A stretch of 34,815 nt of DNA, taken from a virus. Position 1 is the first letter of the stretch. Every line of letters starts with the position of its first letter. The DNA lies in the IMG/VR virus record IMGVR_UViG_3300030098_001332, positions 1-34,815 of that record. One strand, 5' to 3'. The notes under the pieces are model-generated. The model worked only from the letters and a program-made list of their open reading frames with translations, did not search any database and was not told the DNA's origin. The position numbers and the translations under genes were made by a program. Shown piece after piece: positions 5,611 through 16,752 of this stretch.

Positions 5611-7089
5611 TTAATAATACTCCCTTTTCTCTCGGTAATATTCATCATCTTCGTAGTCGTTTGGAGTGATGATAAACCCTCCTTGACGAAAACGCAAGAT
5701 GGCTTGTGTCATACTATCAGCTAAATCGTCATGTTCACCATTTGGAAACGATGCACATTCCTCTACAACTTCGTCTGCAAACCTTGTGTCAGGTCGCCAA
5801 ACCATACCACTTTCAAAGACAGGAGCACAAGAATTCATACGTGTAAATTTATCTGCACCACGACTTGGTGTGAAAGGTGTCACAGGAATACCCATACGTC
5901 TTAGCTCATGTGTCAACGGCATACCTGTCGCTTTTTGTTCTATCAATATCATATCAGGATCGTATTCGTTATATAATTGATGTGCAACTTCTTTTAATTC
6001 TGGAAAATCCCAACGCCCTCTTTGTGCGTCAAGTAGAATAATAGCCTCACTTTCACCGTCTACAGGTGTGAATATACCCCAAGTAGTTATAGCTGAAAAG
6101 TCAGCCCTTTCAGATTTACTGTATGCAGTATCGTAAGATTGTATGATATAACTTACATGTGGTGGTTCATCGTTCTCCCAGATGTTCCACCACTCCCTTT
6201 TGATAATCGCACCTTCTTCAGCAGTGGGATTCTGCAAATACTGTGCGTTCCACTTACCAACGGGAATAGATGATTTAACTGCTTCTAGCTCTTCTCTCTT
6301 CCAGTATTCCGGCCAAAGTACATTGTCTGTGTCGGGGAATATAGCTGGAAATTCAACAACCTCCCACTGATCTGCACCACCCTCAGCCTGTTTCTTTAAT
6401 ACCTTAGCTGTAAGATCACGGACACTCCATCTTGTCATAACAACAATAATCGACCCACCAGGCTGAAGTCTCTGTCGCGGCCCAGAAGTATACCACTCAT
6501 AGATATTGTCTAAAGCAGAAGGACTCAACGCATCCTGTTCAGAAACAGGATCATCAATGATAAGCAAATCAGCACCACGACCCGCCAATGCACCACCGAC
6601 ACCAACAGCATAGTATTCACCACCCTTATTTGTAGACCAACGACCAGATGCTTTAGCATCAGATGCTAACGATACATCAGGGAATATGTCAGAGAACTCT
6701 GGTGAATCAATCAAGTTCTTAACCTTACGACCAAAACCTACAGCCAACTCAGAGGTGTGTGTCGCTTGTATAATCTTACTTGTCGGCTTACGACCCATCA
6801 GCCAAGAGGGGAACAGATAACTCGCAAACTCTGACTTGGTGTGTCGTGGTGGCATATTGACAATCAAACGTGTTGACTTACCATCTGCGACATTCTGTAA
6901 CTTCTCTGCATATATCTTGTGATGCTTACCCTCAATAAATGCCGGCCATACGTGTTTAACAAAATCTATGAATTTTGTCTGATACGTATCTCTTTTGTTT
7001 AAATCATCTAAACGATTAACAATCTCACCGAGTTTAGCCATTTCATCATCGGTGAGATATTCAGTTGGTATGTTAAAGTTATTCGTCAT
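5611..7089 (-). CDS. terL: Terminase large subunit (ATPase/nuclease)
   Basis: This is the packaging motor ATPase and headful or cos nuclease. Numbered from the chosen ATG (492 residues), the Walker-A-like loop is PPRHTKSE at 80-87. Walker B is LLIIDDP at 176-182, with VVMTRW at 217-222 as the coupling region. The RNase H-like nuclease domain follows with acidic residues in QSYDTAYS (D321), LIEQKATG (E385) and GEHDDLADS (D455/D456). Length is normal for the family. An in-frame TTG lies five codons upstream at 7104, but the ATG at 7089 is preferred and leaves an 11-base overlap with the preceding gene. Its partner TerS is separated from it by about 5.6 kb of accessory genes, which is unusual. 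Confidence 0.95.
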   Translation of the reverse strand: MTNNFNIPTEYLTDDEMAKLGEIVNRLDDLNKRDTYQTKFIDFVKHVWPAFIEGKHHKIYAEKLQNVADGKSTRLIVNMPPRHTKSEFASYLFPSWLMGRKPTSKIIQATHTSELAVGFGRKVKNLIDSPEFSDIFPDVSLASDAKASGRWSTNKGGEYYAVGVGGALAGRGADLLIIDDPVSEQDALSPSALDNIYEWYTSGPRQRLQPGGSIIVVMTRWSVRDLTAKVLKKQAEGGADQWEVVEFPAIFPDTDNVLWPEYWKREELEAVKSSIPVGKWNAQYLQNPTAEEGAIIKREWWNIWENDEPPHVSYIIQSYDTAYSKSERADFSAITTWGIFTPVDGESEAIILLDAQRGRWDFPELKEVAHQLYNEYDPDMILIEQKATGMPLTHELRRMGIPVTPFTPSRGADKFTRMNSCAPVFESGMVWRPDTRFADEVVEECASFPNGEHDDLADSMTQAILRFRQGGFIITPNDYEDDEYYREKREYY

Positions 7090-7753
7090 TATACAAGTTA
7101 TCAAAAATCCTGTTTACATCTAATGTGTAGTCTAAATCAGACTTTGAATAATGTATATGCTGAGAAGGTCTAAAATCTGGTGCACCCTCGCCTGTTTGAA
7201 ACCAAGCGGGGTGCGTAACTCTAACTCTGTTGTTCGGTAATGCTACAACATTACCTGTCCATTCACCTGCATCTAGCAAATACATAACATGACTTTGCTT
7301 GTGTTGTGCAGGGTCGTCTGCTATCTCACTATCTGTATAATCAACAGTAAACAGATACTTAGCTGGATACATCTCACTACCTATCTTTGCCAACCAAGGG
7401 CAAGGTGTAGCTCTATCTAAAGTGTAAACAGCGTGGGTATGAGATGAACAATCCCAAGGCTGGGCATCATGTGTGTCCATCGGCTCCGGCCACTCCTCAA
7501 CAGGTATGTCTGCCATCAAGCCAGTGATAGGCATCCTCGCCCACATAGCCCCACCATGAACATTCGGACTTTTTGTTCCATCGGTTTCCGAACCAGTAAA
7601 AATTACTTGAAAACTCAAACATCTGTTCGGCATAGTCGTTACGGCTATTGCCATTGCGTGTAAGAATTCTCCGTGATATTTGTCGTGATTACAGGTGTAC
7701 TCCCGCCTCACCCAACACTTGAAGTGAGGTATATTACTCTGTAAATACGGCAT
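7079..7753 (-). CDS. Conserved marine-phage protein of unknown function next to terL
   Basis: This 224-residue protein is rich in Trp, His, Cys and aromatic residues. It has many H/C residues in the first half (for example CNHDKYHGEF near 21-30, HGGAMWARMP near 66-75, DCSSHTHAVYTLD near 100-112), which could bind metal. I recognise the general look of a protein often seen beside terL in marine phages, but I cannot name a domain. The start ATG overlaps the previous stop (TAATG), and the end overlaps terL by 11 bases, so it is translationally coupled in the packaging operon. A packaging or virion role is inferred only from position. Confidence 0.65.
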   Translation of the reverse strand: MPYLQSNIPHFKCWVRREYTCNHDKYHGEFLHAMAIAVTTMPNRCLSFQVIFTGSETDGTKSPNVHGGAMWARMPITGLMADIPVEEWPEPMDTHDAQPWDCSSHTHAVYTLDRATPCPWLAKIGSEMYPAKYLFTVDYTDSEIADDPAQHKQSHVMYLLDAGEWTGNVVALPNNRVRVTHPAWFQTGEGAPDFRPSQHIHYSKSDLDYTLDVNRIFDNLYNDE

Positions 7754-8007
7754 TAGTTTTTAACTAGTTTATATCCCTTGCTTTTAGCAGCTGATCTGAT
7801 CTTGGCTAATGTCATTCCACCAACAGCACCACCTTTTTTCATGCCTTTGGTCTTAACCTTACCACCCATTTTCATGCCTTTAGCCATCATCTTTCTAGGT
7901 GAAATCTTACCACCCATCTTCATGCCTTTGGCTTTGACCTTGCCACCTTTTTTCATTCCTTTGGATTTTACTTTACCACCCATTTTATAACCCTTTTTCT
8001 TCATCAT
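7753..8007 (-). CDS. Small Lys/Gly/Met-repeat basic protein
   Basis: The 84-residue product is almost entirely a repeat. Five imperfect units of the form K-G-(Y/M)-K-(M/K)-G-G-(K/A)-(V/I) are separated by short basic linkers, and the tail is a short non-repetitive sequence. It is extremely basic, so binding to DNA or to an acidic protein is likely, for example as a packaged condensing or internal protein; this is inference. A GTG at 8061 would give 102 residues and overlap the previous stop, but the ATG at 8007 has an AGGAG about 9 bases upstream and is preferred. The same GG-V signature occurs in neighbouring virion genes (see findings). The underlying DNA is a tandem repeat of roughly 33-48 bases. 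Confidence 0.6.
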   Translation of the reverse strand: MMKKKGYKMGGKVKSKGMKKGGKVKAKGMKMGGKISPRKMMAKGMKMGGKVKTKGMKKGGAVGGMTLAKIRSAAKSKGYKLVKN

Positions 8008-8057
8008 TTTATTTGCTCCTTTACTGACTTGTTGAGGGATTTTTGATCTCGATATTG

Positions 8058-9290
8058 TCACTGTCTAACAGCACTGAGAAAATTGTCAACTGCTGTATCA
8101 AGTTTGTTAACAGAACCACCTTGATTCATTTGTGTTGCAGGAACACCCTGTAACTTAAATAAGTTTCTTAACAATTCTGGTGATATACCTGGTGGCAACA
8201 ATGGTGATGTTGCAGGTAAACTTGGCAACGCAGGTATAGTAAAATCTGGAACTCTTGTTGATTCTACAACAGGGCTAGTCGGCTCTGTAGGTGTAATTAC
8301 ATCAGCTATCGGTGCTGTTGTCTCTGTAGGATCAACTGTCTCTACAGCTGGTGGCAACATACTTTGTATCATAGCTCTCATGCGTTGCTCTTCAGCTAGT
8401 TTTCTTTCTGCTCTTTCTTGGTCTTTCAACCTGTCTCTTGCAATGCTTGATTGTGTACTTTCGTCATCTAATGTTGCTTGTGTTGCTTTGTATAACTCAT
8501 ATGGATCGCTATAACCCATAATACCCATACCTATTTTATTAACAAAAGGTGCAAACATACTCTTTTGCGATTTCATAAAACCTTCATCAAAATATTCTTC
8601 TGGTGGTGCAGGATCATCTGCTGATCTATAGTAACCAGATACGTCTTTTGATATGGGATTAACATCTCCAGACATGAAATCAGAAAAATTAGCTGAATCA
8701 GGATTAAAAGTGGCATATGGACTTTGAACAGAACCTAAATTATCCTGTGGATCCATTTGATAATTTAAATCAGTTGTTTGACCCATTGTTCTGTCTCTTT
8801 GAATTATATTATCAAACGGAACATAAGTAGATTCTTCCATAGGGATAGTTATATCACCTCTACGCTCAGGCATCATACCAACATTTACAGGTGCTGATCT
8901 CTCATCTAATATATCTATGACTTTATCTATTGAATCTTTACGATTCCTGTCACCTTTTAAATCCTTGTTTGTAAAATTACTACCAACTGTAACACCACCA
9001 TTTCTCATGTACTGTGGCTCAAAGACATCGACAGCACCACCCATGTTCATCATCATAGGCTGTTGCATCGGTTGTTGCATAGGCATCTGAGGTGTTGATA
9101 TGTTCGGTAGAAGCTGATCCATAGTTTTCTTCTGGATCGCATCTTTATATCCCTCAAGATAGTTTTTTAACGCATTTCTTTTCTCAGGAGATACATTCAT
9201 GTTCATAGATGGGGATGATTGCCCCTGTGGAGATGGTTTAGGTTGTGGTTGAGGCTGTCCACCCATACCTGTAGCCATGTAATTTGTCAT
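8058..9290 (-). CDS. Pro/Gln/Met-rich virion-associated protein with MGG motifs
   Basis: This protein of 410 residues has a low-complexity N-terminus (GQPQPQPKPSPQGQSS near 10-25). A short helical segment with KNYLEGYKDAIQKK follows, then Met/Gln-rich repeats and two GG motifs (MNMGGAVDVFEP and YMRNGGVTVG near 80-105). The middle is disordered-looking and acidic, with a Thr/Pro-rich linker (near 315-375). The extreme C-terminus repeats the motif as MNQGGSVNKLD before a final helix. No enzyme motif is seen. AAGAGGG lies about 8 bases before the ATG. It is the first gene of the packaging-portal operon after a start-proximal hairpin. A scaffold, chaperone or internal virion protein role is possible but not shown. 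Confidence 0.55.
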   Translation of the reverse strand: MTNYMATGMGGQPQPQPKPSPQGQSSPSMNMNVSPEKRNALKNYLEGYKDAIQKKTMDQLLPNISTPQMPMQQPMQQPMMMNMGGAVDVFEPQYMRNGGVTVGSNFTNKDLKGDRNRKDSIDKVIDILDERSAPVNVGMMPERRGDITIPMEESTYVPFDNIIQRDRTMGQTTDLNYQMDPQDNLGSVQSPYATFNPDSANFSDFMSGDVNPISKDVSGYYRSADDPAPPEEYFDEGFMKSQKSMFAPFVNKIGMGIMGYSDPYELYKATQATLDDESTQSSIARDRLKDQERAERKLAEEQRMRAMIQSMLPPAVETVDPTETTAPIADVITPTEPTSPVVESTRVPDFTIPALPSLPATSPLLPPGISPELLRNLFKLQGVPATQMNQGGSVNKLDTAVDNFLSAVRQ

Positions 9291-9338: not shown

Positions 9339-9704
9339 TTATTTTGACAATATGTTATCGAATTCTTTTACTGCCTGACGACACATTCTAAAAATTTGGC
9401 TAAATTGTGGGTCATTATCACCCTTGTCTAACTCTTTCACTATGCCATCACGCAATCTTTCCATACGTTCACGTTCAAAAGGCGTTAATTTAGCAAATTC
9501 TTCCTTGCCTAACTCCTTTTCAATTAAATATTTCATCGCATACTCCATAACTAACGATACTTTTGTGCTTCCAGACTCATAGAACCTAAACATACGAGGC
9601 GAGATACCTATTTTCTCTCCCATTTTTGCCTGTGTCAAGCCAAGTTTCTTGCGAATTCCACGTAAATCTGTAGGTTTCCACTTGCTGTGTTTAACTCTCT
9701 CCAT
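9339..9704 (-). CDS. XRE/Cro-type helix-turn-helix regulator
   Basis: The product is 121 residues. The segment from about residue 13 to 50 is a clear Cro/C1-type helix-turn-helix: RKKLGLTQAKMGEKIG is helix 1-2 and ISPRMFRFYESGSTKVS is the recognition helix region. The C-terminal half is a charged helical part (ELGKEEFAKLTPFERERMERL and on) suited to dimerisation or contact with the partner protein. It overlaps the upstream 79-residue gene by 14 bases, so the two are co-translated from the promoter at about 9960-9991. That promoter carries a dyad, so autoregulation is plausible. It is the best repressor candidate in this half of the window. It could also be the regulatory half of a toxin-antitoxin-like pair. 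Confidence 0.8.
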   Translation of the reverse strand: MERVKHSKWKPTDLRGIRKKLGLTQAKMGEKIGISPRMFRFYESGSTKVSLVMEYAMKYLIEKELGKEEFAKLTPFERERMERLRDGIVKELDKGDNDPQFSQIFRMCRQAVKEFDNILSK

Positions 9705-9930
9705 CTTGTACCTCTACTAACAGTCCTGATGACAGTAAATCCTCAACAAGAGCCTCTTTTGAGTTGTATCTGAAGCTTTTACCTGACCACATGTTTGCAT
9801 ATTTAGCTGTTTTTCTTAAAAATTCTTTATCGTTCTGTGTCTCAGACCAAGAATCCTTACGCATAAAGTCAATCACACCCATTGCATCCTCAGCTTCAAA
9901 CACTTTTTCTTCTAGTTTGAACTTTTTCAT
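9691..9930 (-). CDS. Small partner gene of the XRE regulator, unknown function
   Basis: This 79-residue protein is acidic and helical, with a Trp-containing centre (MRKDSWSETQNDKEF near 24-38, KYANMWSGKSFRYNS near 44-58). I recognise no family. The start is supported by GAAAGTGAGG about 7 bases upstream, a leader shared by many genes here. It is first in a two-gene unit with the XRE regulator. It could be an anti-repressor, co-repressor or toxin, and nothing in the sequence decides which. Confidence 0.6.
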   Translation of the reverse strand: MKKFKLEEKVFEAEDAMGVIDFMRKDSWSETQNDKEFLRKTAKYANMWSGKSFRYNSKEALVEDLLSSGLLVEVQDGES

Positions 9931-9959: not shown

Positions 9960-9991
9960 ATTATATATAGGTAATTTTTGCCTAAAATCAA
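9960..9991 (-). promoter_or_regulatory. Promoter with spacer operator for the 9930-9339 unit
   Basis: Read on the minus strand, a TTGATT -35 box (9991-9986) is followed by TATATA/TATAAT -10 choices at 9969-9960. The spacer is filled by the dyad AGGCAAAAATTACCT (9983-9969). The same arrangement occurs at 11.5, 12.35 and 16.05 kb. Confidence 0.6.
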
Positions 9992-10017: not shown

Positions 10018-10188
10018 TGGGCGTTTGTCTAAAACTTGCCTCGCGAGGCTTGCCCGAGCGAGGTGCCCCCGAAGGGGGCTCTACCGGCGAGCGTAGCGAG
10101 CCGATCCGACCGATGATACAGTAGGGTACCTGTCCGATTGAAGCCCGTCAGTTGGGTCAAAATCCCGATCCCGTCCGCAGGACGGAAT
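10018..10188. ncRNA. GC-rich hairpin cluster, candidate structured RNA
   Basis: This 170-base stretch is far richer in G+C than the rest of the window and has no open reading frame of note. It holds a series of short stems: GCCT-CGCG-AGGC at 10039-10050, GCCCCCGAAGGGGGC at 10065-10079 (a C-UUCG-G tetraloop if read on the minus strand), the imperfect CGGC...GCCG at 10084-10102, a small GGGTCAAAATCCC stem near 10154-10166, and CCGTCCGCAGGACGG at 10171-10185. On the plus strand it would end in the perfect terminator at 10189-10219. On the minus strand that same terminator would cut it off from the amidoligase transcript. Strand and function are undecided. Confidence 0.45.
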
Positions 10189-10219
10189 AAAAAAAGCCCT
10201 CCGTAGGAGGGCTTTTTTT
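10189..10219. terminator. Bidirectional intrinsic terminator
   Basis: A perfect 8-bp stem, AGCCCTCC-gta-GGAGGGCT (10195-10213), is flanked by an A-run on the left and a T-run on the right, so it can stop transcription from either side. It follows the amidoligase gene on the minus strand and follows the GC-rich hairpin cluster on the plus strand. Confidence 0.85.
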
Positions 10220-10223
10220 CTCT

Positions 10224-10265: not shown

Positions 10266-11432
10266 CTATTGAAATCTCTCTGCTCTGCTGTGAAAGTAAT
10301 CGTATAAATCATCGTCAATACCGTACCAAATAGACGGGTTGCCTGCTCTATTGTCAGGTATTATAGCAACAGTATTAGAACCAGTTCTAAAAGTTTTTAA
10401 AATCTTATAACTTGCGAACTCATCGCCGCTACCATAGGACCTGCCGTTAGCTTGTTGTGTACTTGTGACAATTGAACCGTCACCAAATCTAGACCTCATC
10501 TCAGAGATACGTCCTGCAATATTTGATCTTGTTGTACCTGTTGCCAACATCAAATCTTGAACTGTTGCACCATTCTCTGATCTGCATAAACTCCAAATCT
10601 CTGCAAGCCTTGTTCCAATTCTATAAGGCTGGTCTGGTGTCGTGCTCTCTGTAATGTCATTTTGATATTGTAAAAAATGCCTGTCTGTAGTTCTGTAAAG
10701 ATTGGTAATTAATTTAACCCAATTTAAAATCTTTACTGCTTCAATTGAACCAGAGTTCTGTCTGAATTCAATTGTCTTTTTGCCATTCCAAGAATTTTCA
10801 TAATTAACTGCATTAAACTTGCCGCCAATAACTCTGTTTAATTGTTCAAGTGTATTTGCGTGGTTCCATTCACTTGAATTAACTTTACTGTCTATTGGTC
10901 TACAGTAAGTATTATTGGTTCTGCTATTAGGTAAAATCTTGTTAAAGATTTGTTGGTTTAAACCATAACGATAACCAACAGCCTTAGCTAATTGAAATGG
11001 CATCACGTCTGTTTTGTTATCAGAGTAAAAACGATTGCTAACACGTATAGCATTAATCTGCATTTGATTAAAATCATTAACACTCTGTTTTGTAGTGTCT
11101 AGCCATTCCATACCAAAATGAACGTGCCCGCCACATTTAACTGTGATCTTTGCATTGATACTTTCAAGTGCACTTTGAATTGTTTGTAAGTAATGCGATA
11201 AATTGCAATTGCCTAAATCATCGTATGCCATTGGCGGCAGTATTACCTCAAATACTGTTTCGGCACTAGTCGTGCCATCACGTTTTACAGTGCACCAATC
11301 AATTGAATTGTTGATATCCCAATTTTCAAGTGCATCTTTGATCTTGCGTATACCTTCGCTTTCACTGTTGCAATTCCTAAGTGTGGTTTCAATTTCAATT
11401 CCTATTATAGGACTAGAATTTTGTGTAAACAT
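10266..11432 (-). CDS. Amidoligase (GS-like COOH-NH2 ligase) with C-terminal winged-helix-like region
   Basis: This 388-residue protein is predicted to form amide or isopeptide bonds between an amine and a carboxylate using ATP. The glutamine-synthetase-like amidoligase fold is shown by GIEIE at 11-15, EVILPP at 62-67, CGGHVHFG at 100-107 (metal-binding histidines) and KKTIEFRQNSGS at 218-229 (the conserved Glu and Arg near the end of the domain). Residues about 276-325 (IWSLCRSENGATVQDLM..TTRSNIAGRISEMR) look like a winged helix-turn-helix appended to the enzyme. It is a single-gene transcription unit with its own promoter at 11477-11505 and tandem terminators. The neighbouring unit encodes a gamma-glutamylcyclotransferase-like protein, a known genomic partner of this family. 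The substrate is unknown: peptide, virion protein or cell-wall peptide are options. Confidence 0.85.
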   Translation of the reverse strand: MFTQNSSPIIGIEIETTLRNCNSESEGIRKIKDALENWDINNSIDWCTVKRDGTTSAETVFEVILPPMAYDDLGNCNLSHYLQTIQSALESINAKITVKCGGHVHFGMEWLDTTKQSVNDFNQMQINAIRVSNRFYSDNKTDVMPFQLAKAVGYRYGLNQQIFNKILPNSRTNNTYCRPIDSKVNSSEWNHANTLEQLNRVIGGKFNAVNYENSWNGKKTIEFRQNSGSIEAVKILNWVKLITNLYRTTDRHFLQYQNDITESTTPDQPYRIGTRLAEIWSLCRSENGATVQDLMLATGTTRSNIAGRISEMRSRFGDGSIVTSTQQANGRSYGSGDEFASYKILKTFRTGSNTVAIIPDNRAGNPSIWYGIDDDLYDYFHSRAERFQ

Positions 11433-11476
11433 TTTTGCCTCGCTTTCGTGTTTGTTGTTTAAAATGTTATATATAA

Positions 11477-11505
11477 TATATAGTCATTTATTACCTATAT
11501 TTCAA
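11477..11505 (-). promoter_or_regulatory. Promoter for the amidoligase gene
   Basis: On the minus strand TTGAAA (11505-11500), a 17-base spacer and TATATA (11482-11477) form a near-consensus promoter. The spacer carries a degraded form of the AGGNAA-N3-TTNCCT dyad (AGGTAATAAATGACT, 11496-11482), with one good half. Confidence 0.7.
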
Positions 11506-11539
11506 GTAAAACATTGATTTTTTTAAAGTTTTTTTAATA

Positions 11540-11568
11540 AAAATTGCTGTCTTTCAGACAGCAATTTT
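11540..11568. terminator. Intrinsic terminator, perfect 13-bp stem
   Basis: AAAATTGCTGTCT-ttc-AGACAGCAATTTT is a perfect stem with A and T tracts on its two sides, so it can act in both directions. It lies upstream of the amidoligase promoter and insulates it from the cyclotransferase unit. Confidence 0.75.
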
Positions 11569-11586
11569 CACGAACAATTGTTCGTG
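11569..11586. promoter_or_regulatory. 18-bp perfect palindrome with GAAC-N4-GTTC core
   Basis: CACGAACAATTGTTCGTG is fully self-complementary and lies in non-coding DNA. Its core CGAACAATTGTTCG recurs exactly at 12443-12456 and with one change (CGAACATTTGTTCG) at 29906-29919, and its half site is the dispersed CCGAACAA motif of this genome. It is a candidate binding site for a phage or host regulator; the core has the geometry of a Gram-positive-type LexA box. Confidence 0.55.
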
Positions 11587-11639
11587 TTTTAAAAAATTTA
11601 AAAATTTTTTAAATTTTTTTTTATATATATATAAAAAAA

Positions 11640-11660
11640 AAGGGTGGCGAAGCCACCCTT
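11640..11660 (-). terminator. Terminator of the cyclotransferase unit
   Basis: On the minus strand AAGGGTGGC-ttc-GCCACCCTT runs straight into a long T-tract (11639 downward), a textbook intrinsic terminator. A second hairpin, GGGGAAAATCCT/AAGGATTTTTCCC at 11663-11690, lies just before it. The 11591-11640 stretch is almost pure A/T. Confidence 0.85.
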
Positions 11661-11708
11661 CAGGGGAAAATCCTGACAAGGATTTTTCCCGATGAACTTA
11701 TTTCCCGA

Positions 11709-12182
11709 TCAAATTTTTACCCGATGAAAAGATCTGACCGAATTGTTTCTAGTCACATTATCAAATTGATTAGACTTGTAGTGCGACCAACCCAAAGCTT
11801 CATACAGATGATTCGTTTTAAGACCAAAGTCTTTGTACCCATCCAAGATGCTATTGAAGTAATGTGTGCTAGGGGAAGATACATCTTTCTGATTCATAGT
11901 GTATGTCATCATACCATTGACAGTGATCTTTCTGTACAGATGTGGAAAGCCTTCATAGATGTCTAATCTATCTTCACAATCTTTAGTAATCTCCCAAATA
12001 CCAACGGGTAGGAATACATCGTTACTCCTCGTTGGTTCAATGTCTGCCACACCTCTGAATACCAACCTCCAATTGGGAATATACTGTGCACCCAACTGTC
12101 TAGCATTTGGACATCTTTGTGCCATTTGGGTCAAATTAAGATTTGACCCATAAGCAAAATATAGTTTAGTTTTTTGTTTCAT
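11709..12182 (-). CDS. Gamma-glutamylcyclotransferase-like protein (GGCT/AIG2 fold)
   Basis: This 157-residue protein has the family signature FAYGSNLN at 9-16 (substrate-carboxylate loop) and DIYEGFPHLYRK at 74-85, where Glu77 matches the usual catalytic acid. GGCT enzymes release 5-oxoproline from gamma-glutamyl amines or peptides. Phage and bacterial members often sit beside GS-like amidoligases, as here (amidoligase at 11432-10266), suggesting that one makes and the other trims or recycles an isopeptide. The length is close to a single GGCT domain, and the last 30 residues are basic and Asn/Ser-rich. It overlaps the upstream 46-residue gene by 17 bases. AAAGTGAGG lies about 10 bases before the ATG. 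Confidence 0.85.
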   Translation of the reverse strand: MKQKTKLYFAYGSNLNLTQMAQRCPNARQLGAQYIPNWRLVFRGVADIEPTRSNDVFLPVGIWEITKDCEDRLDIYEGFPHLYRKITVNGMMTYTMNQKDVSSPSTHYFNSILDGYKDFGLKTNHLYEALGWSHYKSNQFDNVTRNNSVRSFHRVKI

Positions 12183-12306
12183 TTAGTTTCTTCCTCACTT
12201 TCTTTAATTTGTTATAATCAGTTTTAGCTAACATATCTAACGCAACTCTGTTTTTGAATTTGCTGATTGCGTTTCTATGCTTACGATTAATTGCTTTTAC
12301 ATACAT
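12166..12306 (-). CDS. Small basic protein (46 aa) ahead of the cyclotransferase
   Basis: A 46-codon frame begins at an ATG with a very good GGAGG seven bases upstream. The product is strongly basic and helical (AINRKHRNAISKFKNRVAL, then KLKKVRKKLNETKN at the end). It overlaps the start of the cyclotransferase gene, whose Shine-Dalgarno lies inside it, so translation is coupled. The family is unknown. Position right after a promoter with a spacer operator supports a real gene. Confidence 0.65.
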   Translation of the reverse strand: MYVKAINRKHRNAISKFKNRVALDMLAKTDYNKLKKVRKKLNETKN

Positions 12307-12337: not shown

Positions 12338-12367
12338 TATATATAGGTAATTATTTCCTATTTTCAA
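12338..12367 (-). promoter_or_regulatory. Promoter with perfect spacer dyad for the 12306-11709 unit
   Basis: Minus-strand TTGAAA (12367-12362) and TATATA (12343-12338) are separated by 18 bases that contain AGGAAATAATTACCT (12359-12345), a clean copy of the AGGNAA-N3-TTNCCT dyad. The arrangement is the same as at 9960-9991 and 16039-16067. Confidence 0.7.
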
Positions 12368-12395: not shown

Positions 12396-12551
12396 TTACA
12401 ACTGCAAATCCAGTCGTAAGATCCTGACAGCTGGGCGTATTACGAACAATTGTTCGGGTTCAGGATCTGGAAGGTTGACAGCCAGATCCTTCAGGTATAT
12501 ATCTAAATCATTCTCATTGTTTCCTCCGAGAATAATATAAATTTTCCTCAC
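12396..12551 (-). CDS. Possible small gene without an ATG start (up to 51 aa)
   Basis: An open frame from a GTG at 12551 to TAA gives a product with normal protein-like composition: YIILGGNNENDLDIYLKDL, then PDPEPEQLFVIRP, ending LRLDLQL. The frame has no ATG. A strong GGAGG-AAACA-ATG sits inside it, but in another frame that stops after four codons (M-R-M-I), so the start may be non-standard (GTG or ATT), or there may be a frameshift or sequence error. AAGTGAGGAA, resembling the shared leader, overlaps the GTG. The perfect palindrome CGAACAATTGTTCG (12443-12456) is inside it, read as PEQLFV. Confidence 0.4.
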   Translation of the reverse strand: MRKIYIILGGNNENDLDIYLKDLAVNLPDPEPEQLFVIRPAVRILRLDLQL

Positions 12552-12582: not shown

Positions 12583-12673
12583 TCCCGAACAATTATTCGG
12601 ATGTCTTCACGGAAACTGGTGCCCGATCTGGGAATCTCCCGATCAGGGTGAGCGTTTACCCCCCGTGACGGTG

Positions 12674-13210
12674 TTATTTCCCAGAATCTCCCACTTGTTC
12701 GCTATTTTCGACTATCTGAACCCGAACATCTTTATCTGGCGTTACGTTACGCATCCTTCCAACGGCTATATTTTTAAATTCTTCCAGTTTTTCAATGATT
12801 TGCTCTCTGCTGAGAGAGTTCATATCTTCGTGCATCACGTGTTGTTTGTTAACCAGTAGTCCTGTCGCCTTTAATCTGAGCTCCTCTGCACGTATTGCCT
12901 CCCCGATCTTGCCATTATCCCAAGCTTCGTTACGCATCTTTAATAAATCCCGAACAGATTTCTCAACAGTCACCCCGAACTTGGCGTTAGCCTCCATACG
13001 CATCTCCTGATACCGTTCCTGTACTACAGGGTTACGTAAAAGCCGAACAGCATCAACCGTTGGGTTACTGTATCCAGCTTCTCGTGCTGAAGCAGTTTGT
13101 GTCATATCCCGATACATAAAGTTATCTAAAAACTTCTGTTGTTTTGCAGTAAGTCTTTTCCAACCTGCCTTGCTTTGTTCTTTCGTTAATGTTTCGCCTA
13201 CCTTACTCAT
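12674..13210 (-). CDS. terS: Terminase small subunit
   Basis: This 178-residue protein opens with the typical small-terminase DNA-recognition module: LTAKQQKFLDNFMYRDMTQ at 20-38, then TASAREAGYSNPTVDAVRLL and NPVVQERYQE, matching Terminase_2-type proteins (helix-turn-helix, Ala/Gly-rich turn, RxxxNPxVxxR). The middle (EKSVRDLLKMRNEAWDNGKI and on) is the helical oligomerisation part. The start overlaps the previous stop (TAATG). It would bind the packaging start site; a strongly palindromic region lies just upstream (13406-13634). It is unusual in being about 5.6 kb away from terL, with the accessory block in between. Confidence 0.9.
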   Translation of the reverse strand: MSKVGETLTKEQSKAGWKRLTAKQQKFLDNFMYRDMTQTASAREAGYSNPTVDAVRLLRNPVVQERYQEMRMEANAKFGVTVEKSVRDLLKMRNEAWDNGKIGEAIRAEELRLKATGLLVNKQHVMHEDMNSLSREQIIEKLEEFKNIAVGRMRNVTPDKDVRVQIVENSEQVGDSGK

Positions 13211-13830: not shown

Positions 13831-14265
13831 CTAGTGCTCCCATCTATAAAAACAATGTGTATCAATACACACTGTTTGTGTAAAAGCATTAGCCCAATAA
13901 GGGCTAACATAGTCAGCATGATAATGTGTCGAACCATCGGTAACGTCAATACTAATTTGTTCATTTAGAACAACCCAAGCTATTGCCTCAGCCCAATCAT
14001 AAGCTTTGACATCATCAATTACTTCTGGTTTGCCATCACAATAAAAACTAAACGCACACTTATCCCGAACAATTTTTCGACTATCCCAAGAATATCGTAA
14101 GCCGTCAGTAACAACTTCGCACACTGTATTCGGAAATCTTTGATCATTAACCCGGTTATTTATAACTTGAGCCACTGCCAGCTGTGCCACTATAGGCTCA
14201 GACCTAGCCTCAAAGTATATAGCATAGCTCATGCAAACCAAAGCTGTTGCTGTCTCCAACATCAT
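13831..14265 (-). CDS. Cell-wall hydrolase, SleB type (Hydrolase_2)
   Basis: This 144-residue protein matches the SleB/CwlJ hydrolase domain, which cuts peptidoglycan. It has YFEARSEPIVAQLAVAQVIN at 17-36 (catalytic Glu in the FEAR block), NRV, FPNTVCEVV near 44-52, AFSFYCDGKP near 71-80, and GSTHYHADYVSPYWA near 111-125. The N-terminus (METATALVCMSYAIY) is hydrophobic but belongs to the domain rather than to a clear signal peptide. It overlaps the preceding gene by 4 bases (ATGA). The genome also has a T4-type lysozyme 12 kb away, so this one may serve in virion entry or as a second lysis factor. Confidence 0.8.
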   Translation of the reverse strand: MMLETATALVCMSYAIYFEARSEPIVAQLAVAQVINNRVNDQRFPNTVCEVVTDGLRYSWDSRKIVRDKCAFSFYCDGKPEVIDDVKAYDWAEAIAWVVLNEQISIDVTDGSTHYHADYVSPYWANAFTQTVCIDTHCFYRWEH

Positions 14266-15140: not shown

Positions 15141-15349
15141 TACTGCACCTCATCAATATTAAATGTCCAATAAATTTCTGAGTCTGTACCAAACTTTCTT
15201 GGACGTGGTTTCGCTTTTGAGTATGGTTCTTCCACTAAGAAAGAAGAACCAACTTCATATTCATCCCATTCTTTGTCAACGATTGATCCATACCAATCGT
15301 CAACAATTTCATTTCTAACATTAGGAACTTTTCTAGCTTTAACTGACAT
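15140..15349 (-). CDS. Hypothetical protein (69 aa)
   Basis: The product begins MSVKARKVPNVRNEIVDDWY and has a Trp-rich, acidic and Lys-rich body with no motif I recognise. A TTG at 15358 could extend it by three residues; the ATG at 15349 is preferred. It overlaps the metalloprotease gene by 11 bases. Confidence 0.5.
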   Translation of the reverse strand: MSVKARKVPNVRNEIVDDWYGSIVDKEWDEYEVGSSFLVEEPYSKAKPRPRKFGTDSEIYWTFNIDEVQ

Positions 15350-15773
15350 TTGCAACACCCACAGTTAAACTTCTATAGTTCTCAGCATAAGCACGACACT
15401 CGTTAAAGACTTCATCCCAATGACCTTGTGGCATACCGTATGACATCAATGCACGTTTCATTACGTTACTAGCAGTATCTGTCCATACAATCGCAACAGA
15501 CATAGCATACTTCCAAGCACCAATCTCTTTCTCCATAAGATCATTTTCTCTGCCTTGTGCAGGTCCAATCAAATGACCAATCTCGTGTAATGCCGAAACA
15601 TAAAAACCCGTGTTCTTTGTTGGTCTAATGCAAATCAACTTGTGTCTCGGGTTTGCATAATAACGTGGGTCTGTATCATTCAATGATTGATACTTAACAG
15701 TGATGTCATGCTCTGCACATAACTCTTGTACGTGCAAAGCCATATCAATTCTTTTAACTAATGGTCTAGTCAT
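15339..15773 (-). CDS. HEIGH zinc metalloprotease-like protein (M78/IrrE-like)
   Basis: This 144-residue protein has SALHEIGHLIG at 60-70, the HExxH zinc-protease signature. It is followed by an acidic helix (RENDLMEKEIGAWKYAMSV near 75-93) where the third zinc ligand of ImmA/IrrE-like (M78) peptidases usually lies. In that family, phage and plasmid members cleave repressors to switch gene programs. It lies in the small-gene operon, overlapping the next gene. No repressor gene is directly adjacent; the RHH and XRE genes are each several kb away. The substrate is unknown. Confidence 0.7.
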   Translation of the reverse strand: MTRPLVKRIDMALHVQELCAEHDITVKYQSLNDTDPRYYANPRHKLICIRPTKNTGFYVSALHEIGHLIGPAQGRENDLMEKEIGAWKYAMSVAIVWTDTASNVMKRALMSYGMPQGHWDEVFNECRAYAENYRSLTVGVANVS

Positions 15774-16086: not shown

Positions 16087-16752
16087 TTAAATTAATATCA
16101 TTTGTGTTGAAACTTTGTTGTCTATCCTATAGTTCAGCGTTTCTGTTTTTGGGTAAGAATGTATAGGATAATTTAAATTTTGATTAAATATTCTCTTTTG
16201 TCTTTTGTCTCCTAAGAAATATATATACCTATGTTTTCTTGGTCTATCGACTACCTCAAACTTATCTTTGTCATTCATTCTTTCCTGTAAAGTATACTTC
16301 TCACATATTGTCTTTGAGTGCATATTAGAATTTTTTATTCGCCACTCTGTTCTTTTGTCTGACAATCCTGTGTATATAAAATTAGTAGCTTGATAAATAT
16401 ATCCTGTATGGTTCATACTTGTATCTGCGTAAGATACAACTATCTGGGGCTTGGGTAATAACTTTAAACTATTACCAACAAGATAGGACGCATTGTTTTT
16501 ATCATTATCAATTAAACATAATCTATTGAGCTCGATAACTTTATCTCTAAATTGTTCGCCACAAACTCCAATACAAAGAGATGAGCTCGGTGGTGAGCCA
16601 TAAGTTATTATACCAATTAATTCTTTATGTAAGTATAACCCGAACGAATAAGATATTGACGGTATTCTCTTGGCATAATGTAATCTTTTTAGCCACTCGT
16701 ATGTTTCCTCTTTTTTTATTTCCAAAACTTTTTTATTTTTAAAGTCATTCAT
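16087..16752 (-). CDS. Mom-like DNA-modification protein (GNAT fold)
   Basis: This 221-residue protein resembles the phage Mu Mom family, which adds a carbamoylmethyl group to adenine in DNA and protects it from restriction. Seen here: HYAKRIPSISYSFGLY (about 26-41), GIITYGSPPSS (47-57), VIELNRLCLI (72-81), NASYLVGNSLKLLP (87-100), VVSYADTSMNHTGYIYQATN (104-123) and FIYTGLSDKR. This succession (YGxPPS, ELNRL, SYADxxxNHxGxIYQAxNF) is the usual Mom signature. It overlaps by 8 bases the small four-cysteine gene just upstream, the same order as com-mom in Mu. The bases before its ATG are nearly all A with no good Shine-Dalgarno, so it may depend on coupling or an activator. Confidence 0.85.
   Translation of the reverse strand: MNDFKNKKVLEIKKEETYEWLKRLHYAKRIPSISYSFGLYLHKELIGIITYGSPPSSSLCIGVCGEQFRDKVIELNRLCLIDNDKNNASYLVGNSLKLLPKPQIVVSYADTSMNHTGYIYQATNFIYTGLSDKRTEWRIKNSNMHSKTICEKYTLQERMNDKDKFEVVDRPRKHRYIYFLGDKRQKRIFNQNLNYPIHSYPKTETLNYRIDNKVSTQMILI

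Follow-up and report, generated by a model that had tools for sequence, protein, structure and literature searches.

A phage amidoligase with a predicted C-terminal winged helix, its gamma-glutamylcyclotransferase partner and two palindromes in an uncultured phage group

The window analysed here is a 34,815-base IMG/VR virus record, taken at its full length. Between its two terminase genes lie the genes for an Amidoligase_2 enzyme with a C-terminal winged helix and for a gamma-glutamyl cyclotransferase (GGCT), both where the initial annotation had placed them (Table 1). The terL product is closest to those of Pelagibacter phages HTVC027P and HTVC023P, phage 023Pt_psg01 and DSL-LC04, at 56-62% identity. 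No amidoligase is annotated near the terminase genes in three of these named relatives, and none of them was among the matches listed in a tblastn search with the amidoligase. The window phage is therefore assigned to an uncultured, apparently marine group.

Table 1. Genes, domains and DNA elements of the window.
Feature	Position	Strand	Remarks
terL, terminase large subunit	5611-7104		
Protein of 102 aa with repeated units	7753-8061	-	conserved
hth, Xre-type HTH regulator	9339..9704	-	PF01381; overlaps p79; palindrome in own operon promoter
p79, small conserved protein	9691..9930	-	downstream of amidoligase; 90/144 non-redundant loci
Palindrome TAGGTAATTTTTGCCTA	9968..9984	.	p79-hth promoter, -35/-10 spacer; exact match
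Intrinsic terminator after amidoligase	10186..10222	-	hairpin -20.5 kcal/mol with U-run
Amidoligase_2 (GS-like carboxylate-amine ligase) with C-terminal winged helix	10266..11432	-	388 aa
Winged helix-turn-helix of amidoligase	10389..10625	-	residues about 270-348; AF2 models, structural matches
GS-like catalytic domain of amidoligase	10647..11432	-	residues 1-262; motifs invariant in 19 homologues
Degenerate copy of promoter palindrome	11481..11497	.	amidoligase promoter spacer; 2 mismatches
Palindrome ACGAACAATTGTTCGT	11570..11585	.	between GGCT terminator and amidoligase promoter
Intrinsic terminator of GGCT unit	11639..11661	-	strong hairpin and U-run
GGCT/AIG2-like gamma-glutamyl cyclotransferase	11709..12182	-	157 aa; PF06094, phrog_2520
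p46, very basic 46-aa peptide	12166..12306	-	overlaps GGCT start by 17 bp
Operator-like palindrome TAGGTAATTATTTCCTA	12344..12360	.	p46-GGCT promoter, -35/-10 spacer; exact match
Second copy of CCGAACAATTGTTCGG palindrome, ACGAACAATTGTTCGG	12442..12457	.	between terS and p46-GGCT
Third copy of CCGAACAATTGTTCGG palindrome, CCGAACAATTATTCGG	12585..12600	.	one mismatch
terS, terminase small subunit	12674..13210	-	PF03592, phrog_51
SleB-type cell-wall hydrolase	13831-14265	-	PF07486
Small zincin-like protein	15339-15773	-	no Pfam match
Mom-type DNA-modification protein	16087-16752	-	PF25680, E 3e-40

The family identities of both enzymes are secure. The amidoligase matches PF12224 (51.4 bits, cut-off 22, E 1.7e-13) and phrog_2443, and its AlphaFold2 model is confident (mean pLDDT 87). 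When VIA-align was run on the Foldseek candidates for this model, glutamine synthetases (GS) and gamma-glutamylmethylamide synthetase (GmaS) aligned at Z about 12 across some 210-220 residues, reaching Z 12.7 over 214 residues; Foldseek itself returned weak matches to YbdK, Dop and PafA. The catalytic motifs are GIEIE (residues 11-15), E62, HVH (103-105), SR (170-171), K205, TIEFR (220-224) and K234. Across 19 homologues, down to 22% identity, G11, E13, E15, E62, H103, H105, S170, R171, K205, T220, E222, R224 and K234 are all unchanged. In GS, the GxExE, HxH and ExR (TxExR) motifs supply the metal and phosphate ligands; the loss of such ligands, set beforehand as grounds against the assignment, therefore did not occur, and the catalytic glutamate of the GGCT (E77) is likewise kept. 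Family, fold and motifs thus uphold the GS-like amidoligase of the initial annotation, and dN/dS values of 0.08-0.11 against close relatives point to purifying selection. Among bacteria, the only homologues are distant Bacteroidales amidoligases that match the catalytic part alone, at 21-31% identity. We infer the chemistry of the enzyme and a gamma-glutamyl specificity.

A winged-helix-like C-terminus had been suspected from the sequence, and AlphaFold2 modelling together with structural matches supports a winged helix-turn-helix (wHTH). The best VIA-align match of the tail is the wHTH domain of Staphylococcus aureus biotin protein ligase (Z 7.5, rmsd 2.2, 61 residues), and further matches include NiaR, MarR-type proteins and the wHTH domains of E. 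coli BirA. Z values of ~7 are modest, yet nearly all of the rows listed are wHTH proteins. A sequence search of the tail against the PDB gave only weak matches; at relaxed thresholds, Pfam found DUF3489 in 24 of 32 amidoligase tails and HTH_24 in 8 of 32. The tail is predicted to bind DNA and to serve in regulation.

The fusion was initially called unusual, a description that does not hold for the window phage in particular. It is no oddity, because 92 distinct amidoligases among the first 183 loci carry the winged helix, and its conservation extends through an entire group of uncultured marine phages. Twelve distinct amidoligases lack the tail: contig ends truncate six of them, and the other six form a distant class with another C-terminus (L014-L017, L177 and L182). 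Across 50,697 deposited phage genome records there was no full-length match to the tailed amidoligase, and the literature searched yielded no earlier description of an amidoligase joined to a winged helix in a phage. Compared with L010, the catalytic domain is 58% identical and the tail 73%, so the catalytic part diverges faster. Some loci also encode a separate tail-like winged-helix ORF just upstream of the amidoligase (L124:5475-5759, L127:5244-5525, L210:3298-3603, L231:1364-1669 and L236:6801-7235).

The GGCT scores 23.4 bits against PF06094 (cut-off 22.8) and matches phrog_2520 with E 2.8e-28; it carries a YGSN motif (residues 11-14). A profile built from 22 relatives picks up human GGCT (E 1.4e-16), and E77, invariant in all 22, aligns with the catalytic glutamate of the human LD..EG motif. 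The GGCT-fold partner proposed at the outset is thus confirmed. The same cannot be said of p46 as a substrate. Its ORF is real and conserved in close relatives, and of the 136 non-redundant GGCT loci covered by a survey of gene neighbourhoods only 10 have it ahead of GGCT; in another clade a 101-aa gene unrelated to p46 is coupled to GGCT in its place. A general or universal substrate role is therefore unlikely. Relatives of p46 precede relocated GGCT genes in L035, L039 and L042, and p46 thus travels with GGCT; it may be a local regulatory or accessory peptide. The ~101-aa protein, conserved and acidic, is coupled to the GGCT start in L129, L154, L156, L158, L160 and similar loci.

Co-occurrence of the two enzyme genes was strong. 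GGCT was found in 27 of 27 amidoligase-centred non-redundant loci with at least 5 kb upstream, and an amidoligase in 14 of 15 GGCT-centred non-redundant loci flanked on either side by at least 5 kb, counts that are inflated by shared ancestry, the cases not all being independent. A real exception is L021, a 140-kb contig with GGCT but no amidoligase match. A lack of co-occurrence in related phages, which had been named as evidence against a link, did not arise. The placement of GGCT varies: it lies between terS and the amidoligase or before terS, in both cases on either strand, and in the distant class it directly follows the amidoligase, head to tail, overlapping or nearly so. That the genes are rearranged yet not lost speaks for a functional link between the enzymes.

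GGCT and the amidoligase form separate transcription units, as first annotated, each with its own hairpin and U-run terminator and a probable promoter of its own. A bare sigma-70 promoter scan was not above chance. In both the p46-GGCT and the p79-hth promoters, the spacer that separates the putative -35 and -10 elements is occupied exactly by a palindrome of 17 bp, TAGGNAANNNTTNCCTA, with two exact copies in the window against none in 100 shuffles. The p46-GGCT copy is conserved in L001, L002 and L006, and L006 has a copy of the TAGGNAANNNTTNCCTA type in its amidoligase promoter with one mismatch. Another word is common to the p46-GGCT and p79-hth promoters of L031 and of L042; the L031 case is weak, its score being no higher than the best among 60 shuffles. 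In most relatives p79 and the Xre-type HTH gene follow the amidoligase; p79, for which there was no convincing family match, may act as partner to either protein. The Xre-type protein is the most likely candidate for reading the promoter palindrome and acting as common regulator. As the palindrome is shared by the GGCT and p79-hth promoters, with a degenerate copy at the amidoligase, the enzymes probably form one regulon under this protein.

A different palindrome, CCGAACAATTGTTCGG, emerged from the comparison of relatives, and no earlier description of it was found in the literature. Its density in the gap that separates terS from the amidoligase is 52 times that found elsewhere (306 copies in 276 kb, compared with 19 in 902 kb) in 128 non-redundant loci that include some recruited by the palindrome itself; without these loci, its density at up to one mismatch is 1.57 per kb in the gap and 0.08 elsewhere. 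Copies are mostly non-coding, with 33 of 325 inside long open frames, where 54% of random positions would fall, and 98 of the 128 loci have one near the amidoligase start. The CGAACAATTGTTCG copy in the window lies ~70 bp upstream of the putative amidoligase -35, not over the promoter. Nearly complete contigs hold a few copies outside the gap as well. When the 16-mer alone was scanned over 2.9 million viral contigs, it retrieved 68 stretches: 57 carry an amidoligase, in seven more the group is represented by just terS, GGCT or terL, and four are apparently unrelated. Loci of the amidoligase class without the winged helix lack CCGAACAATTGTTCGG, as do three Pelagibacter-type relatives; L133, L158, L161 and L174 encode a wHTH amidoligase and have no exact copy. 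The palindrome stays in the terS-amidoligase gap when GGCT is elsewhere. That it follows GGCT was mostly rejected: relocated GGCT genes have 4 copies upstream against 1.3 expected (p 0.04).

Either the amidoligase tail or TerS may read CCGAACAATTGTTCGG. Both candidates fit, TerS equally well, and 119 of 144 amidoligase loci have TerS of the window's family. L054 and L056 carry several copies of a variant repeat, CCGAAACTTTGTTCGG, upstream of the amidoligase (about 7380-7800), where others have CCGAACAATTGTTCGG. Despite the variant repeat, their TerS helix and the recognition helix of the L056 tail are close to those of the window. The L056 tail does differ in the wing, at positions that hardly vary elsewhere (TQQ to TQA and YG to FG), a correspondence with CCGAAACTTTGTTCGG that is suggestive only. 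There is a substantial chance, somewhat short of even, that the array is a TerS packaging site of the pac or cosB kind, unrelated to the amidoligase, and that the wHTH has its role elsewhere. The array abuts terS, is non-coding and multi-copy (three copies 51 bp apart in L035), and in nearly all palindrome-recruited loci it is accompanied by terS of the window's family. A packaging site fits less well with phages of the L019 type, where one intergenic gap after another holds a single copy along 3.8 kb, including the gap directly ahead of the amidoligase, or with L054 and L056, whose TerS HTH is close to that of the window although the repeat differs.

The architecture of the amidoligase recalls BirA. 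Both combine an ATP-dependent amide-forming ligase and a wHTH in one chain, both have inverted repeats near their own gene, and BirA-type wHTH domains are among the best matches of the tail. The wHTH of BirA is N-terminal, whereas the window tail is C-terminal, and the window protein, whose catalytic domain matches GS and Amidoligase_2, has no biotin protein ligase domain; its DNA binding and repression are predictions. The Pup ligase and deamidase, PafA and Dop, share the GS-like fold and isopeptide chemistry and match the window amidoligase weakly in Foldseek. The Pup substrate ends in GGE or GGQ, whereas p46, the only candidate tested, ends in ETKN and is absent from most loci. The eraser of the Pup system is itself a GS-fold enzyme; the candidate eraser here is the GGCT. 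The pair is classed neither as a Pup system nor as BirA, and its enzymes are members of the Amidoligase_2 and GGCT families. By analogy, it may work like BirA in architecture and like the ligase and cyclotransferase part of phage peptidoglycan cassettes in chemistry.

Our preferred reading, with a probability of roughly 45%, is a two-enzyme module that makes and breaks an amide and whose ligase controls itself through BirA-like DNA binding. The amidoligase would use ATP to activate a carboxylate as an acyl phosphate, most likely the gamma-carboxyl of glutamate or of a glutamate-containing peptide, and would join the activated group to an amine. From such an amide GGCT would set free the gamma-glutamyl group in the form of 5-oxoproline, and in this way trim, reverse or recycle the product. 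The module would be akin to the RIO-1/LUZ24 peptidoglycan-modification cassette, with neither its second ligase nor its amidotransferase found. The winged helix would bind inverted-repeat DNA near its own gene, tying synthesis of the amidoligase, or its action, to DNA occupancy, and the GGCT, p79-hth and amidoligase units would probably respond together to the phage Xre protein. Given the BirA-like architecture and the palindromes upstream of the amidoligase, we favour a regulatory or DNA-site role for the tail. The most likely single guess for the target would be the host cell wall, as proposed for related cassettes. Amidoligase-GGCT pairs have been known in phages for years, and we found no demonstrated substrate in the literature. 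The pair itself is therefore not new; the clade-wide winged-helix fusion and the two palindromes appear to be. The window group represents a minimal, two-enzyme version, with two candidate DNA sites and a ligase that has a predicted DNA-binding domain. Should the tail prove to bind DNA, the principle known from BirA, of a ligase that is its own DNA-binding regulator, would have a second, unrelated example.

Both enzyme families occur together in phage peptidoglycan-modification cassettes (RIO-1, PSA-HP1, LUZ24 and phiEco32; PMC5498523, PMC3890496, PMC11945000), which PMC5498523 and PMC6256558, with phiM6 as a further case, trace to Iyer 2009 and Hardies 2013. phrog_2443 and phrog_2520 also lie close together in Clostridium clostridioforme prophages, for which a winged-helix tail or palindrome array is not reported (PMC11318856). 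The window pair might be a stripped-down cassette, a reading that we find rather unlikely: the amidoligase would add or change a residue of the murein peptide, GGCT would remove residues, and the altered surface would block superinfection. LUZ24 carries both enzymes plus partners. The cassettes lie among replication genes, whereas the window pair forms separate units between terS and terL. COOH-NH2_lig (PF14395), whose model matches LUZ24, is absent from the window and 8 related contigs, several of them incomplete, and GATase_6 (class II glutamine amidotransferase, PF13522), whose model matches the controls, is absent from 11 contigs, five of them >50 kb. Since neither was found, the pair is not classed as a full peptidoglycan cassette. 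An ATP-grasp enzyme was matched neither by a RimK HMM, which misses LUZ24 too, nor by phmmer with LUZ24 gp21. The LUZ24 GGCT is beyond the reach of the group's GGCT profile and the LUZ24 amidoligase has no such tail; a DNA-binding tail would be unexpected on a purely cell-wall enzyme.

Less likely again is an auxiliary metabolic pair that works on free gamma-glutamyl compounds (glutathione, polyamines or nitrogen storage) and has no macromolecular target. GGCT families act on small gamma-glutamyl compounds, and the fold matches include GmaS, which synthesizes a gamma-glutamyl amide. Such a role has been proposed for phage ZRK32 (PMC10945688). It would leave the DNA-binding tail unexplained, and a casual look at nearby genes noticed no glutathione synthase or other pathway gene.

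The initial annotation hinted at tagging of a DNA-bound protein. Here the winged helix would guide the amidoligase to the palindrome array by terS, where a DNA-bound protein or the packaging machinery would be modified by attachment of an amino acid or peptide, with GGCT as dedicated eraser. The array is mostly confined to the terS-amidoligase gap and keeps its place when GGCT relocates, and the tail has diverged less than the catalytic domain, all of which suits this idea. Binding by the tail is, however, a prediction, and TerS may be the sole reader. BirA-type ligase-repressors regulate transcription; they are no precedent for catalysis guided to DNA, and we regard such tagging as improbable. 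Two unrelated accessory genes sharing a cargo region by chance would suit the separate terminators and probable promoters and the movement of GGCT relative to terS, but the near-complete co-occurrence, the common promoter palindrome and the head-to-tail arrangement in the second, distant class make this very improbable.

Further genes of the region are shared with relatives to differing degrees. The SleB-type cell-wall hydrolase gene near terS is also found in many relatives, and the small zincin-like protein, which has a HEIGHL motif, is conserved in 38 loci. Only some relatives have the Mom-type DNA-modification protein. A link to DNA hypermodification through this neighbour was considered and rejected, Mom being present in only 12 loci (first set, short flanks) and thus an inconsistent partner. 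Upstream of the terL gene, the conserved protein of 102 aa is made up of repeated KGMKxGGKVK units.
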